NCBI GenBank assembly: GCA_001784585.1
Contig: MFRN01000038.1
Location: 1-43,004 of the forward strand
Reading direction: 5' to 3'
Source of the DNA: Candidatus Melainabacteria bacterium RIFCSPLOWO2_02_FULL_35_15
GTDB taxonomy: Bacteria; Cyanobacteriota; Vampirovibrionia; 2-02-FULL-35-15
Length of the DNA stretch: 43,004 nucleotides
Under the pieces are notes generated by a model. It made no database searches and was not told the origin of the DNA. It saw nothing but the letters and a program-made list of their open reading frames with translations. The translations under genes were made by a program, and so were the position numbers. Below, in pieces: positions 8,980-37,444 of this stretch. How positions within the stretch are numbered: position 1 is the stretch's first letter; each line of letters opens with the position of its first letter.

Positions 8980-10302
8980 CTACCTCTTACAGCCTACTAA
9001 GTCTTTCTGCTCCAAAACTCTATTAAACACTGTGTCGACATGTTTCAGGTGTTTCTTTGGATCAAAACATTCTTCAATTATATTTGGTGATAAATACTTC
9101 AAAACTTCTTTATCACTTAAAATATTCCTTTTAAAATCCCCATCTTTTTTATTCCATGCATTATGTGCATTTTTCTGGATAAGTTTATATGCAGCTTCTC
9201 TCTCTAAGCCAGCTTCAACAAGCTTTAATAAAACAGTTTGTGAGAAAATGACCCCGCCAAACTTAAACATATTTTCTTTCATATTTTCAGGATAAACATT
9301 TAAATCAGAAATTATTTGATTAACCCTGTCCAGCATAAAATCAATCAATGTAGTAGCATCCGGCAGAATAATCCTTTCTACTGAACTATGGCTGATATCC
9401 CTTTCATGCCACAGAGGGATATTTTCCATTGCACTTAGAGAATATGCCCTGACCAGTCTTGCCAGCCCGCACAGATTTTCCGATCTCCACGGATTTCTTT
9501 TATGTGGCATTGCCGAGCTGCCTTTCTGATTTTCATAAAAAGGTTCTTCTGCTTCTAAAACCTCTGTCCTTTGCAAGTGTCTGATTTCAGTAGCAATTCT
9601 TTCAATCATTGTAGCTATAAGTGCCAGTTCATTTAAATAAAGCGCATGTCTGTCACGACTTATAACCTGAGTAGAAAGTGGTGCTGGTTTTAAACCAAGT
9701 TTTCCTGTAGCAATTTCTTCAACCCTGGGATTTATGTTTGAATATGTCCCCACGGCACCAGAAAACATTCCTACATTTATTTCATCCATGGCAAATTGAA
9801 ATCTTTTTTTTGCCCTGTTTAACCCTTCCCAGAACCCAAGCAACTTTAATCCAAATGTAGTCGGCTCAGCATGAACTCCATGTGTCCTTCCTATACAAAT
9901 TGTATTTTTATGCTCAATTGCCTTTTTTTGTAATGTAGATAAAAACTTATTTAACCCGTCTGATATTTTTTTCCCGGCTTGTTTTAAAAGTATCGCAAAA
10001 GAAGTATCCACCAAATCAGAGCTTGTCATTCCCAGATGTAGAAATCTTCCATCTGGTCCAATTGATTCAGTTAAGCAGGTTAAAAATGCAATTACATCAT
10101 GATGAACTTCTTTATCAATTTCCTCAATCCTCTTTATGTCAAATTTTGCTCTTTCTTTAATAATAGACAGAGATTCTCTGGATACTTGTCCAAGTTCACA
10201 GAGTGCTTCAGCTGCTGCAATTTCTACAGAAAGCCACACATTGTACTTATTTTCTTCAGACCAGATCTTTGCTAATTCTGGCCTTGTATATCTTTGAATC
10301 AT
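8980..10302 (-). CDS. purB: Adenylosuccinate lyase
   Basis: A 440-residue lyase that acts twice in purine synthesis, releasing fumarate from SAICAR and from adenylosuccinate. The family signature SSAMPHKRNP is at residues 262-271. TSSD (93-96) and GRTHGVHAEPTTFG (138-151) are the other active-site segments. The length is normal. The ATG at 10300-10302 lacks a ribosome site but sits 8 bases downstream of the hairpin of leader element copy A (10311-10389), suggesting that the element controls or supplies translation initiation. purD lies elsewhere in the window rather than in one pur operon. Confidence 0.95.
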   Translation of the reverse strand: MIQRYTRPELAKIWSEENKYNVWLSVEIAAAEALCELGQVSRESLSIIKERAKFDIKRIEEIDKEVHHDVIAFLTCLTESIGPDGRFLHLGMTSSDLVDTSFAILLKQAGKKISDGLNKFLSTLQKKAIEHKNTICIGRTHGVHAEPTTFGLKLLGFWEGLNRAKKRFQFAMDEINVGMFSGAVGTYSNINPRVEEIATGKLGLKPAPLSTQVISRDRHALYLNELALIATMIERIATEIRHLQRTEVLEAEEPFYENQKGSSAMPHKRNPWRSENLCGLARLVRAYSLSAMENIPLWHERDISHSSVERIILPDATTLIDFMLDRVNQIISDLNVYPENMKENMFKFGGVIFSQTVLLKLVEAGLEREAAYKLIQKNAHNAWNKKDGDFKRNILSDKEVLKYLSPNIIEECFDPKKHLKHVDTVFNRVLEQKDLVGCKR

Positions 10303-10310
10303 TCTTTATA

Positions 10311-10389
10311 GCTCAAGACAAGCTTGAGCTTCCTTCGGCTAATCCTTATTAGTTGGATCGGATTTGTCCGCCTTAGGCGGAACAAATCC
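10311..10389 (-). repeat. Two-hairpin leader element, copy A (upstream of purB)
   Basis: Read on the minus strand, it has a first hairpin (CCGCC/GGCGG flanked by ATTTGT/ACAAAT), GATCCAAC, a purine block CCGAAGGAAG and a second hairpin GCTCAAG-CTTGT-CTTGAGC (10311-10329). A short AT stretch leads to the purB ATG. From the purine block through hairpin 2 it is identical to copy B in front of yidC. Confidence 0.75.
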
Positions 10390-10482
10390 TTACATAATAA
10401 AATGTTTTGTTCATCCATGTACAAGGTTATATTCTACAATAATTAGTGTCATTGTGAGCAAAGCAGCAACATTAAGAAACAA

Positions 10483-30869: not shown

Positions 30870-32030
30870 TCAAGCTTCACTTTGTACTTTTTCTTTTTTC
30901 CTGGGCTCTTCAATTTTTAAACTCTCAATGGAAACAGGTTTCCTCATTACCATCCACGTCTGAAGTGCCTGAATAATACCACTTACTACAAAATATAAAA
31001 GAACACCGGCAGGTACAGGAAATAATAATGTCATCGTTCCAACCATAACCGGCATAACTCTTTGCATCGTTTTTTGCATGTCAGCTTGTTTCGGATCAGA
31101 GGGAGGAAGAGTAGTATGTGAAGTAACTTTCCCGGATAACCAGATAGTCAGTGCAAATAATATAACTAAAATAACAACGTCTATATTGAACTTTCCTGTC
31201 AAAGGATCAACAGCACCCGTTTTCCCAAGGCCGTTTATAAATAAAAAACTGTCTTTTTCAGAAGAGCCCGGTAAAATTGCATTTAAGAAAATCGTTCCTG
31301 GTTTTTTGGTTTTAACGGTAACACTATTGTCTGAGTTTACTGTTAGATCAGCAAATGAGCTTAAGTCCTTCGGATTTCCTTCCGGAGTAAAGTAAGACTT
31401 ATCTGAGAATTGCCACCTGACATTATTTGTTACCCCGTTTATATTCCCTTCAAGTGTATAGATTTTATATGTGATTTCTTTTTCACTGGGGATTTTAACT
31501 TCTCCTGGATGTAAAACTAATCTGCCTTTCAGTCCTTCTTTACCAACAAAAATTGTAGGACTTGAGGAACCTTTAATTTGCTCGTTTAAAGTCTGGGTTT
31601 TATCTAAAATCTGCACAGGCACTGTAATTGCAACAGGTTTAAATGGAGAGCCGTTAAATGCCCAAAACAGTGCTATTAATATTGGAAGCTGAAAAAGCAT
31701 AGGAAAACAGCCGCCAAGAGGATTGACTTTATATGTCTGGTAAAACCCCATCATATCTTTCTGGAAACTTTCCTGAATTTCCTTTAATTTAGCAGGTTTG
31801 TCTTTATATCTTTCTTTTTGCTGATTAAATCTGTCCTGAAGTATTTTAATTTTGGGCTGAAGAGCCTGCATTTTCTGCATTGACTTGGTTTGATGTTTAG
31901 TAAGCGGATAAAGAGCTACTTTTACAACAATTGTTACAACTATAATTGCCCAGCCGTAGCTACCAAGTGAGTTTTTAAAAAACTCAAGCATTGGAAGAAT
32001 AAAATGATAGGTAAGTAAACTAAGATCCAT
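30870..32030 (-). CDS. yidC: YidC membrane protein insertase
   Basis: A 386-residue Oxa1/YidC protein that inserts proteins into the inner membrane. The first core helix and C1 loop (AIIVVTIVVKVALYPLTKHQ, MQKMQALQPKIKILQ) and FPMLFQLPILIALFWAFNGSPF are typical. Residues about 130-283 form an extracytoplasmic insertion ending FLFINGLGKTGAVDP, matching cyanobacterial-type YidC rather than the proteobacterial N-terminal P1 domain. The last core helices follow. The ATG at 32028-32030 lacks a ribosome site and lies 10 bases downstream of leader element copy B. It is the last gene of rpmH-rnpA-yidD-yidC. Confidence 0.95.
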   Translation of the reverse strand: MDLSLLTYHFILPMLEFFKNSLGSYGWAIIVVTIVVKVALYPLTKHQTKSMQKMQALQPKIKILQDRFNQQKERYKDKPAKLKEIQESFQKDMMGFYQTYKVNPLGGCFPMLFQLPILIALFWAFNGSPFKPVAITVPVQILDKTQTLNEQIKGSSSPTIFVGKEGLKGRLVLHPGEVKIPSEKEITYKIYTLEGNINGVTNNVRWQFSDKSYFTPEGNPKDLSSFADLTVNSDNSVTVKTKKPGTIFLNAILPGSSEKDSFLFINGLGKTGAVDPLTGKFNIDVVILVILFALTIWLSGKVTSHTTLPPSDPKQADMQKTMQRVMPVMVGTMTLLFPVPAGVLLYFVVSGIIQALQTWMVMRKPVSIESLKIEEPRKKEKVQSEA

Positions 32031-32040
32031 TTTTTATATA

Positions 32041-32116
32041 GCTCAAGACAAGCTTGAGCTTCCTTCGGTCAATTCCTTTCGTTTGATCAGCTTTGCCGAA
32101 TGAATCGGACAAAGCC
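32041..32116 (-). repeat. Two-hairpin leader element, copy B (yidD end / yidC leader)
   Basis: The minus strand has GCTTTG-CCGA paired with TCGG-CAAAGC, then GATCAAAC, GACCGAAGGAAG and the GCTCAAG-CTTGT-CTTGAGC hairpin (32041-32059). The element encodes the last residues of YidD, whose TGA is in the hairpin's 3' arm, and ends 10 bases before the yidC ATG. Confidence 0.75.
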
Positions 32117-32387
32117 TATAACTGGTGAATTCATTTGGTACATGATCTATTCCTCCTTCACATAGCGGATTACACCTCAATAATCTTTTTAACGAAAGCA
32201 CTATTCCATAAATCGGGCCATATTTTTCTAATGATTTCAAAAAATAATCCGAGCAACTCGGATAAAATCTACATTCAGAAAATTGAAAAATTGATCTCAC
32301 AACCCGTGTTTTTTGCCAGAGTGTAACAAAAAATAAAATTAATTGATAAAACATAAAATATACTTTTGCAAATAAATATTCAATCAC
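32043..32387 (-). CDS. yidD: Membrane protein insertion efficiency factor YidD
   Basis: A 114-residue protein with the family core FSECRFYPSCSDYFLKSLEKYG, KRLLRCNPLCEGG and DHVP. It helps YidC-dependent insertion at the inner face of the membrane. Its ATG overlaps the end of rnpA by four bases (ATGA), so translation is coupled. The last ~20 residues (LIKRKELTEGSSSLS) are encoded by leader element copy B and are not part of the conserved domain, so the element appears to have been inserted at the gene's 3' end. Confidence 0.93.
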   Translation of the reverse strand: MIEYLFAKVYFMFYQLILFFVTLWQKTRVVRSIFQFSECRFYPSCSDYFLKSLEKYGPIYGIVLSLKRLLRCNPLCEGGIDHVPNEFTSYRLCPIHSAKLIKRKELTEGSSSLS

Positions 32388-36098: not shown

Positions 36099-36182
36099 GA
36101 GTGTAAAAATCTAGATTTGATCAGACAGACAGTGTCCGTGTTGCGAGTCCGCTTAAGGCGGATGAGCAACATCACATCAATT

Positions 36183-36219
36183 TTGTCATTGCGAAGGTCT
36201 GCAAGACCTGAAGCAATCT
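36183..36219 (+). repeat. REP-like element, unit 1
   Basis: The unit begins TTGTCATTGCGA and ends GAAGCAATCT, with an inner hairpin GGTCT-GCA-AGACC. The ends match unit 2 at 36298-36333 read on the other strand. The GTCATTGCGA...GAAGCAATCT pattern is known from dispersed repeats of many bacteria. Confidence 0.75.
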
Positions 36220-36297
36220 TACACCAAAGTAAATGTAAATAAGGCCGCTTTTATAAACCTGACTTTTTACATTGTAGATATAAATAGCTGTTGTGTT

Positions 36298-36333
36298 AGA
36301 TTGCTTCGGGTTAAAGCCCCCTCGCAATGACAA
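36298..36333 (-). repeat. REP-like element, unit 2 (inverted)
   Basis: Read on the minus strand this begins TTGTCATTGCGAG and ends GAAGCAATCT, the same ends as unit 1. The inner hairpin differs in sequence but still pairs (GGG/CCC). The two units face each other 78 bases apart, as in a paired mobile REP structure. Confidence 0.75.
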
Positions 36334-36414
36334 TATTGCTCTTTGGTTGTTCGTCGCTATCGCTCCTCACAACCACTTACAATGTCTATAAAGTTAAATC
36401 TAAACTTTTACAGA

Positions 36415-37389
36415 TTAAGTAAACTTCAACATTTGCGGCTTATTAGCAACATGCATTTTCTGCTCTGCTTCCTCTAATATTTTTACAACCTGATATCCAC
36501 TTGCTCCATCTGAGCGCGGGGCTTCGCCTGATGTTATGCAATGTATAAAATGTTCACATTCCAGTCTTAATGGCTCATCGCTGCTAAAGCCTGGGGTTTC
36601 TGTTTGTACTACTCCGTCATTGTTTATAAAATAAATTTCAAGTTTATTTTCTTGCCTGCTGTCGTTTAGTACTGCTGTTTTTTTGCTGCCGTTTACTGTA
36701 AGTAAAACCTGTTTTTGAGGATCAATCCAGCTGTTATGTATATGTGCCGGGATATCTCCAGGGAAATTTAAGTCAAGGTGTGCTACATCAATTATACTGT
36801 CACTGTTTGTAGACCAGCCACATGCATTTTCAATACCAGCAGGTTCGAGTCCTAAGATATAACTCATCATGGAAATGTCATGCGGAGCGAGATCCCAGAT
36901 AACATTATTATCCCGTCTTTGTTGCTGATTAAAATTTCTTCTGTCGCTGTTTAAAAATCTAACATCGCCAAGTTCACCTTTAAATATAAGTTCCCGTAAG
37001 CTGTTTACTGCAGGATGATAAACAAGCAAGTGCCCAACCATTAATGTAAGTCCCTTAACACCGGCAAGGTGAGTTAACTCTTGAGCCTGAAGGTAACCTC
37101 TGGCTAATGGTTTTTCAACATAGACATGTTTCCCGGCCAAAAGTGCAAGTCTTGCAAGTGCATAATGTGTGTGCGTAGGCGTAGCTATCACAATGCCGTT
37201 AATATCCGGATTTGAAATTAAGTCAGCATAGCTTGTAGTAACTTTTGCATCCTTATAAGTTTTTCTAACCCAGTCCAGTATTTTTGGATCGGCATCACAC
37301 ACCATGTTTAATGCACTAATATCAAACAAATTCCGTGCAAGATTTTTACCCCAGCTGCCACAACCTACCAGTGCTATATTTGGTTTCAT
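36415..37389 (-). CDS. Gfo/Idh/MocA-family oxidoreductase
   Basis: A 324-residue NAD(P)-dependent sugar or inositol oxidoreductase. The Rossmann motif is ALVGCGSWGKNLARNL, then GIVIATPTHTHYALA, VEKPLARG (catalytic Lys) and the active-site region WDLAPHDISMMSYILG (Asp-His). In many genomes such enzymes make nucleotide-sugar derivatives for polysaccharides, but the substrate here is open. I use ATG 37387-37389; an ATG at 37396-37398 or the TTG at 37405-37407 would overlap the leader hairpin (copy C, 37402-37420). No ribosome site is seen. Confidence 0.88.
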   Translation of the reverse strand: MKPNIALVGCGSWGKNLARNLFDISALNMVCDADPKILDWVRKTYKDAKVTTSYADLISNPDINGIVIATPTHTHYALARLALLAGKHVYVEKPLARGYLQAQELTHLAGVKGLTLMVGHLLVYHPAVNSLRELIFKGELGDVRFLNSDRRNFNQQQRRDNNVIWDLAPHDISMMSYILGLEPAGIENACGWSTNSDSIIDVAHLDLNFPGDIPAHIHNSWIDPQKQVLLTVNGSKKTAVLNDSRQENKLEIYFINNDGVVQTETPGFSSDEPLRLECEHFIHCITSGEAPRSDGASGYQVVKILEEAEQKMHVANKPQMLKFT

Positions 37390-37401
37390 TTTTGTCATAA
37401 A

Positions 37402-37420
37402 GCACAAAACAAGTTTGTGC
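37402..37420 (-). repeat. Leader element, copy C (second hairpin only)
   Basis: GCACAAA-CTTGT-TTTGTGC on the minus strand matches the second hairpin of copies A and B, with two compensated base-pair changes and the same CTTGT loop. It lies 12 bases before the Gfo/Idh start codon. The upstream first hairpin is not recognisable. Confidence 0.6.
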
Positions 37421-37444
37421 TTTTCTTCAGTCAGTAATTATTAA

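Follow-up and report, generated by a model that had tools for sequence, protein, structure and literature searches.

A family-specific mobile two-hairpin element at gene starts and its possible use as a split ribosome-binding site

In a stretch of 43,004 nucleotides (the window, i.e. the whole stretch of DNA that was analysed) from a Candidatus Caenarcanales/Melainabacteria genome, hereafter the own genome, copies of a two-hairpin element lie directly before start codons. We suggest, with a probability of roughly 0.6, that this element is a non-autonomous, family-specific mobile palindrome of ~97 nt, which inserted at gene edges with a duplication of 14–25 nt and which, at starts, probably serves as a split ribosome-binding site. 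This reading builds on directly observed features, i.e. the repetition of the element, the covariation of its stems, its spread through one family, empty orthologous sites, target duplications, adjacency to starts and an enrichment of Shine-Dalgarno-like sequences.

Architecture of the element and its copies in the window

A conservation profile of 110 copies (30 from the own genome and 80 from nine relatives) delimits a conserved unit that begins ~13 nt ahead of hairpin 1 and extends ~8 nt past hairpin 2, with a median length of 97 nt. From left to right, the element consists of the left end TTNNCA-A-TTAAAG, hairpin 1 (7 bp, a bulged T, 4 bp, loop TTYAT), a linker of ~29 nt ending in a purine block with the consensus ANGGAA, hairpin 2 (7–8 bp with the nearly invariant loop CTTGT), and the A-rich right end TATATAAAA.

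All four copies that the earlier note had claimed, before purB, yidC, a Gfo/Idh gene and a decayed ORF, were found in the window, where they were scored with covariance model R1 (built from 12 copies; threshold for a full copy >60 bits). Copy A is a full element on the minus strand at 10303–10402 (R1 match 10309–10395, minus, 83.7 bits; ends set by the conservation profile) and comprises hairpin 1 (10360–10389), the purine block AAGGAA (10331–10336), which is the proposed Shine-Dalgarno sequence, and hairpin 2 (10310–10330; stem AGCTCAAG/CTTGAGCT, loop CTTGT); the start codon of purB (10300–10302, minus) follows 8 nt past the 7-bp stem. In the predicted RNA fold of copy A both hairpins form, the purine block is unpaired, and block and ATG are free in the centroid. 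Copy B, also full and on the minus strand (32033–32129; R1 match 32039–32122, minus, 99.0 bits), has hairpin 1 at 32090–32116, which is present in the RNA fold, and at 32040–32060 a hairpin 2 with the sequence of that in copy A; the yidC start codon (32028–32030, minus) lies 10 nt past it. Copies A and B are identical at 24 of 24 bases around hairpin 2, where no match is expected by chance and shuffled windows give none. Pfam assigns the downstream genes to Lyase_1/ADSL_C (purB), 60KD_IMP (yidC) and, for copy C, GFO_IDH_MocA.

The description of the copies as two-hairpin elements holds in full for A and B, but not for C and D. Copy C (37393–37427, minus; 32.0 bits with model R2, 22.5 bits with R1) is a remnant with hairpin 2 (GCACAAA-CTTGT-TTTGTGC) and the purine block but without hairpin 1, and behind it, on the same strand, the GFO/IDH/MocA gene has an ATG at 37396–37398 and a second in-frame ATG at 37387–37389. 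Copy D (643–725, plus; R1 match 47.5 bits) is decayed. Its hairpin 2 retains a paired stem of 5 bp, as had been pointed out, but CTTGT in the loop is replaced by CGGT and the ORF that follows has only 5 codons; because of this decay, copy D is weak evidence for covariation. Downstream of it, at 986–2050, the window encodes a Fic/DOC-family protein (PF02661). Separately, positions 36161–36355 hold an inverted pair of TGTCATTGCGA-type repeats, a palindromic repeat unrelated to the two-hairpin element.

The covariation itself lies far above chance. Among 76 copies, which sample three genomes almost completely, 1257 of 1296 stem cells (97%) are Watson-Crick pairs, 16 (1.2%) are G.T and seven are A.C. 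Between copies the arms of hairpin 2 are hardly more alike than the linkers (64% vs 59%), yet the arms pair. Double-change cells number 87 and 89 over 59 and 54 distinct copies, compared to ~19 in shuffles, with 0 of 500 shuffles reaching the observed values, and the covariation is also upheld against slid partners. These data show that the hairpin structure of the element is maintained.

The earlier note had taken the covariation as an argument for function as RNA, and this step does not follow. The hairpins and the loop CTTGT are equally conserved beside tRNAs, at opposing genes and where no gene was found, and hairpin 2 is equally perfect in start-abutting copies (50/53) and in other copies (78/84); therefore, translation cannot be the general reason for hairpin conservation. 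The kept pairing fits DNA-level mobility or palindrome upkeep as well, and a strand test on mispairs (G.T vs A.C, 16 vs 7, p=0.047) is too weak to separate RNA from DNA. Thus, covariation by itself is compatible with a role of the hairpins in RNA as well as in single-stranded DNA.

Strong covariation and an invariant loop would also be expected of a conserved regulatory RNA, such as a riboswitch or a protein-binding leader governing a regulon. Against this, most orthologous genes are without the element, it also stands at antisense tRNAs, the target genes have no obvious common pathway, and no Rfam family fits the window copies (a search of the window with Rfam 15 returned only three tRNAs, with no family matching these copies above the gathering score). 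We consider this the least probable of the explanations weighed here. Two simpler roles were rejected. A terminator would not fit because A, not T, comes after hairpin 2; for a promoter (TATAAA beside the tRNA or ATG), there is no -35 sequence at a fitting distance, and the empty orthologs, e.g. of fabF, suggest by eye a natural promoter upstream of the insertion.

Distribution, position and mobility

The own genome contains 32 intact copies (R1 >60 bits), followed by a gap in the scores and a few decayed copies. The element was present in 11 of 11 genomes searched of the family to which the window belongs and absent from 49 of 49 genomes of other families in the same class; across 84,980 named species, the hairpin-1 pattern matched only Candidatus Melainabacteria and Caenarcanales MAGs, and the viral contigs searched held no match to the element. 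Of note, the copies from most relatives are the best-scoring ones, and some are orthologous and not independent.

Several copies have unusual structures. Three tandem copies, 116–118 nt apart, precede a tRNA-Gly gene in the own genome (L011–L013, C13:40669–40986). In relative G003, one copy (L305, C40:40709–40819) has another palindrome, CCCGCTTCGCCCGCGAAGCGAGGCGAG, inserted within hairpin 1, while upstream of rpsJ only hairpin 2 is present (L071) and its loop has changed from CTTGT to TTTTT with the stem and the AAGGAAG block kept.

Adjacency to starts, proposed from the window, extends to the whole genome, where 16 of the 32 intact copies lie at most 13 nt before a same-strand ATG. Across all 137 distinct copies, 53 end 0–13 nt before an ATG (mode 8–12 nt) and 21 lie 14–45 nt before one, where gene starts are mechanical ORF calls and a counted ATG must open an ORF of at least 60 codons. 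Ten copies adjoin the 5' end of a tRNA gene, 13 the 3' end of an antisense tRNA gene, and 40 occupy other sites, some of which, by eye, are short genes or opposing terminators. Some of the downstream genes look, as read from the sequence, like rpsJ, rplN, rplJ, fabF and narH. The distance from hairpin 2 to the ATG peaks at 8–12 nt whereas distances on the left side are spread over ~3–314 nt; the narrow spacing on the right can therefore not be put down to crowding alone. For 17 start-abutting copies, a stop codon is found upstream at no more than 45 nt from the element, which thus takes up most of the space between the cistrons.

That the element is mobile, as had been supposed, is borne out by empty orthologous sites, target duplications and its scattered spread through the family. 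Orthologs of 16 downstream genes were located in ten relatives with one chimeric query and their upstream regions were compared. For nearly all genes with own-genome copies there are empty orthologous sites with natural leaders. Among the genomes shown, yidC, rplJ and ald carry the element only in the own genome, whereas, with the own genome included, two orthologs are occupied for rplN, two for murJ, four for PDE and four of five for narH; at rpsJ, the own genome has an intact element and two relatives have hairpin-only or altered versions.

The left and right flanks of a given copy resemble each other more than permuted flanks do (z=5.2, 0 of 300 permutations, tandem array excluded), and six flank alignments score at least 14, compared to 0.2 expected. 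Accordingly, target duplications of 14–25 nt flank some copies, the best being 18/18 nt (L172), 24/25 nt (L306), 18/19 nt (L229) and 20/23 nt (L206). They begin with an A-run beside the A-rich right end, and those of L206, L231, L260, L036 and L207 extend over the start codon and first codons of the gene downstream. What might pass for a third hairpin in the PDE copies (GTAAGATTTCTTAC, to the left of hairpin 1) is more plausibly a target duplication of the gene start that has decayed. Terminal inverted repeats are absent, since the left end (TTNNCAA-TTAAAG) and the right end (TATATAAAA), as read from the profile, have no complementarity.

Together, these observations make it near certain that this is a lineage-specific mobile palindromic element. 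Our working model is that it would insert at A-rich gene edges, mostly translation starts, and that insertion would make a long (14–25 nt) target duplication. At a coding gene the duplicate would often hold the start and first codons, so that the gene is restored intact immediately downstream of the element; the start on the left side would then decay and the element would thereafter be the leader of that gene. Because an insertion at a start duplicates it, with the right copy staying the gene and the left one decaying, the copies likely became start-adjacent in this way, and the site and manner of insertion largely account for their placement before starts.

A SINE-like retroelement moving by target-primed reverse transcription would account for several of the same features: the A-rich 3' end, long and variable duplications that start with an A-run beside it, and the lack of terminal inverted repeats. 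The truncated copies could be read likewise, in that the own genome has 13 hairpin-2-only copies while hairpin-1-only matches belong mostly to another repeat. Several hairpin-2-only copies arose, however, by internal deletion of hairpin 1 and not by 5' truncation, and no reverse transcriptase (PF00078) was found in any of the 11 carrier genomes (0/11). We therefore regard this explanation as largely refuted, unless the reverse transcriptase falls outside PF00078, and as very unlikely overall.

The purine block and a putative split ribosome-binding site

The earlier note had proposed that folding brings a ribosome-site-like sequence next to the start. To score such sequences, we used the longest match to TAAGGAGGTGA within 10 nt before hairpin 2. 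A match of at least 5 nt was present in 26 of 53 start-abutting copies (49%) but in only 19 of 84 other copies (23%), a difference with p=0.002 by permutation within genomes for an association found after several tests. By class, the remaining matches comprise 5/21 copies farther from a start, 1/10 at sense tRNAs, 3/13 at antisense tRNAs and 10/40 others. Because hairpin 2 is equally perfect in both groups, the difference does not reflect general decay. Counter to the favoured reading, half of the start-abutting copies are without a 5-nt match.

With hairpin 2 folded out, the gap between GGA and ATG is 6–13 nt in 52 of the 53 near copies (median 9 nt). In these near copies, the stretch from hairpin 2 to the ATG has no Shine-Dalgarno match longer than 4 nt, and several copies farther from the ATG keep a natural AGGA or AGGAG in that interval. 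The predicted accessibility of the AUG is moderate (0.54 unpaired). We propose that the purine block of start-abutting copies probably serves as their Shine-Dalgarno sequence and that hairpin 2, by folding out the 19–21 nt between block and tail, would bring it to ~9 nt from the AUG. This presumes transcription through the element. For the genes with a nearby upstream stop codon, translation from an operon message would require ribosomes to initiate within the element.

Such an arrangement is established for phage T4 genes 38 and 25, in which a fold cuts 22 and 27 nt to 5 and 11 nt (PMC3014915). As in T4, a Shine-Dalgarno-like sequence lies upstream of a hairpin that ends a few nucleotides before the AUG, and the hairpin shortens the spacing, here from ~28–33 nt to a median of 9 nt. 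The T4 cases are single phage genes with experimental proof; here, by contrast, the sites are predicted and belong to a dispersed mobile element that would serve dozens of unrelated bacterial genes. The idea that folding supplies the ribosome site is thus indirectly supported, by the enrichment and by the folded spacing, and on these sequence comparisons we judge it plausible, at about even odds, that start-abutting copies of the element have been co-opted as split ribosome-binding sites.

Alternatively, the element could be a purely selfish REP- or MITE-like repeat, whose preference for A-rich edges and gene-rebuilding duplication would place it before starts with no role in translation, and whose hairpins would be the substrate of a single-stranded-DNA transposase. 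The copies at tRNA 5' ends (10), at antisense tRNA 3' ends (13) and at other sites (40 of 137) have the same A-rich right end and hairpins and loop as conserved as those at starts, and G.T pairs (1.2%, 16/1296, three genomes) are few for a structured RNA. On the other hand, the Shine-Dalgarno enrichment is specific to start-abutting copies, most of the hairpin-2-only remnants examined stand before an ATG, and essential-looking operon genes have the element as their immediate leader. On balance, we hold a purely selfish element to be a serious but doubtful explanation.

Candidate mobilising enzymes and relation to known elements

Our model implies that a trans-acting enzyme would mobilise the element. 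Five of the eleven carrier genomes had no Y1 transposase, and the retrieved flanks of the Y1 genes held no copy of the element. The sole Y1 transposase found in the own genome (146 aa) belongs to an apparently intact IS200-type element (L016, C20:1–3126), whose right end bears the hairpin CCCCCAAC-TTTTA-GTTGGGGG and whose ends are unrelated to the two-hairpin element. Relatives (G001, G002, G005, G008 and G009) have divergent RAYT-like Y1 genes (L243–L249), most of them with in-frame palindromes, often of the GTAG type, and several are preceded by a repeated ATGTAACC..GGTTACAT hairpin. Because the own-genome enzyme belongs to IS200-type ends and the RAYT-like genes carry other hairpins (GTAG...CTAC) with no copy of the element nearby, mobilisation by IS200 or RAYT enzymes was rejected.

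REPs, which are GTAG- or CGTC-tagged and linked to RAYT transposases, are found chiefly downstream of genes, and their distance to ORFs further downstream varies (PMC3733652). The two-hairpin element resembles them in being a short, mobile, mostly extragenic palindrome with many copies in a lineage-specific family. It differs in abutting starts, in its long target duplications and in occurring in genomes without a Y1 transposase; moreover, its palindromes have neither a GTAG nor a CGTC tag at their foot, with AAAG before hairpin 1 and GGAA before hairpin 2 instead.

Like MITEs, the element is a small non-autonomous insert with target duplications that can become a gene leader. The target duplications of MITEs are usually 2–10 nt, whereas those of the two-hairpin element are 14–25 nt, and terminal inverted repeats are lacking. 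A second repeat of the same genomes, the type II repeat, does look like a normal MITE. Near-identical copies of this 167-nt repeat, with a hairpin-1 module inside, are present in the own genome (C40:12441–12607, C30:50132–50296, C33:16139–16305 and ~8 more, including L321, L323–L325 and L356), with many matches also in G001 and G004; with its short inverted ends GTTNNTGCCTANC and ~8-nt target duplications, both read by eye, it has the appearance of a MITE that was active recently.

Prokaryotic precedents for long target duplications are IS1549/IS1634, in which they are long and variable (PMC2266710), and casposons, in which they are 14 nt (PMC10359463); both differ from the two-hairpin element in encoding their own enzyme and in having terminal inverted repeats. 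As a putative ribosome-binding site, the two-hairpin element works like the split T4 sites; it is neither a REP (no tag, no RAYT) nor a canonical MITE (no inverted ends). Long duplications without terminal inverted repeats, in a family in which five carriers have no Y1 transposase and none has a PF00078 reverse transcriptase, would point to an enzyme not yet linked to such repeats.

Tentatively, and at somewhat below even odds, we extend the favoured reading to a start-targeting mobile element that, by duplicating the gene start so that the ORF is rebuilt, installs itself as a split ribosome-binding site and rewires translation initiation of dozens of genes family-wide, ribosomal-protein genes included, being moved by an enzyme that makes 14–25-nt staggered insertions. 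A few phage genes are known to have split ribosome-binding sites; here, with hundreds of copies, the arrangement would become open to testing. If this reading is true, many genes, among them ribosomal-protein genes, receive their ribosome-binding region from a selfish repeat, and every insertion could be studied as a natural experiment in translation initiation, since sister genomes contain the empty orthologs.
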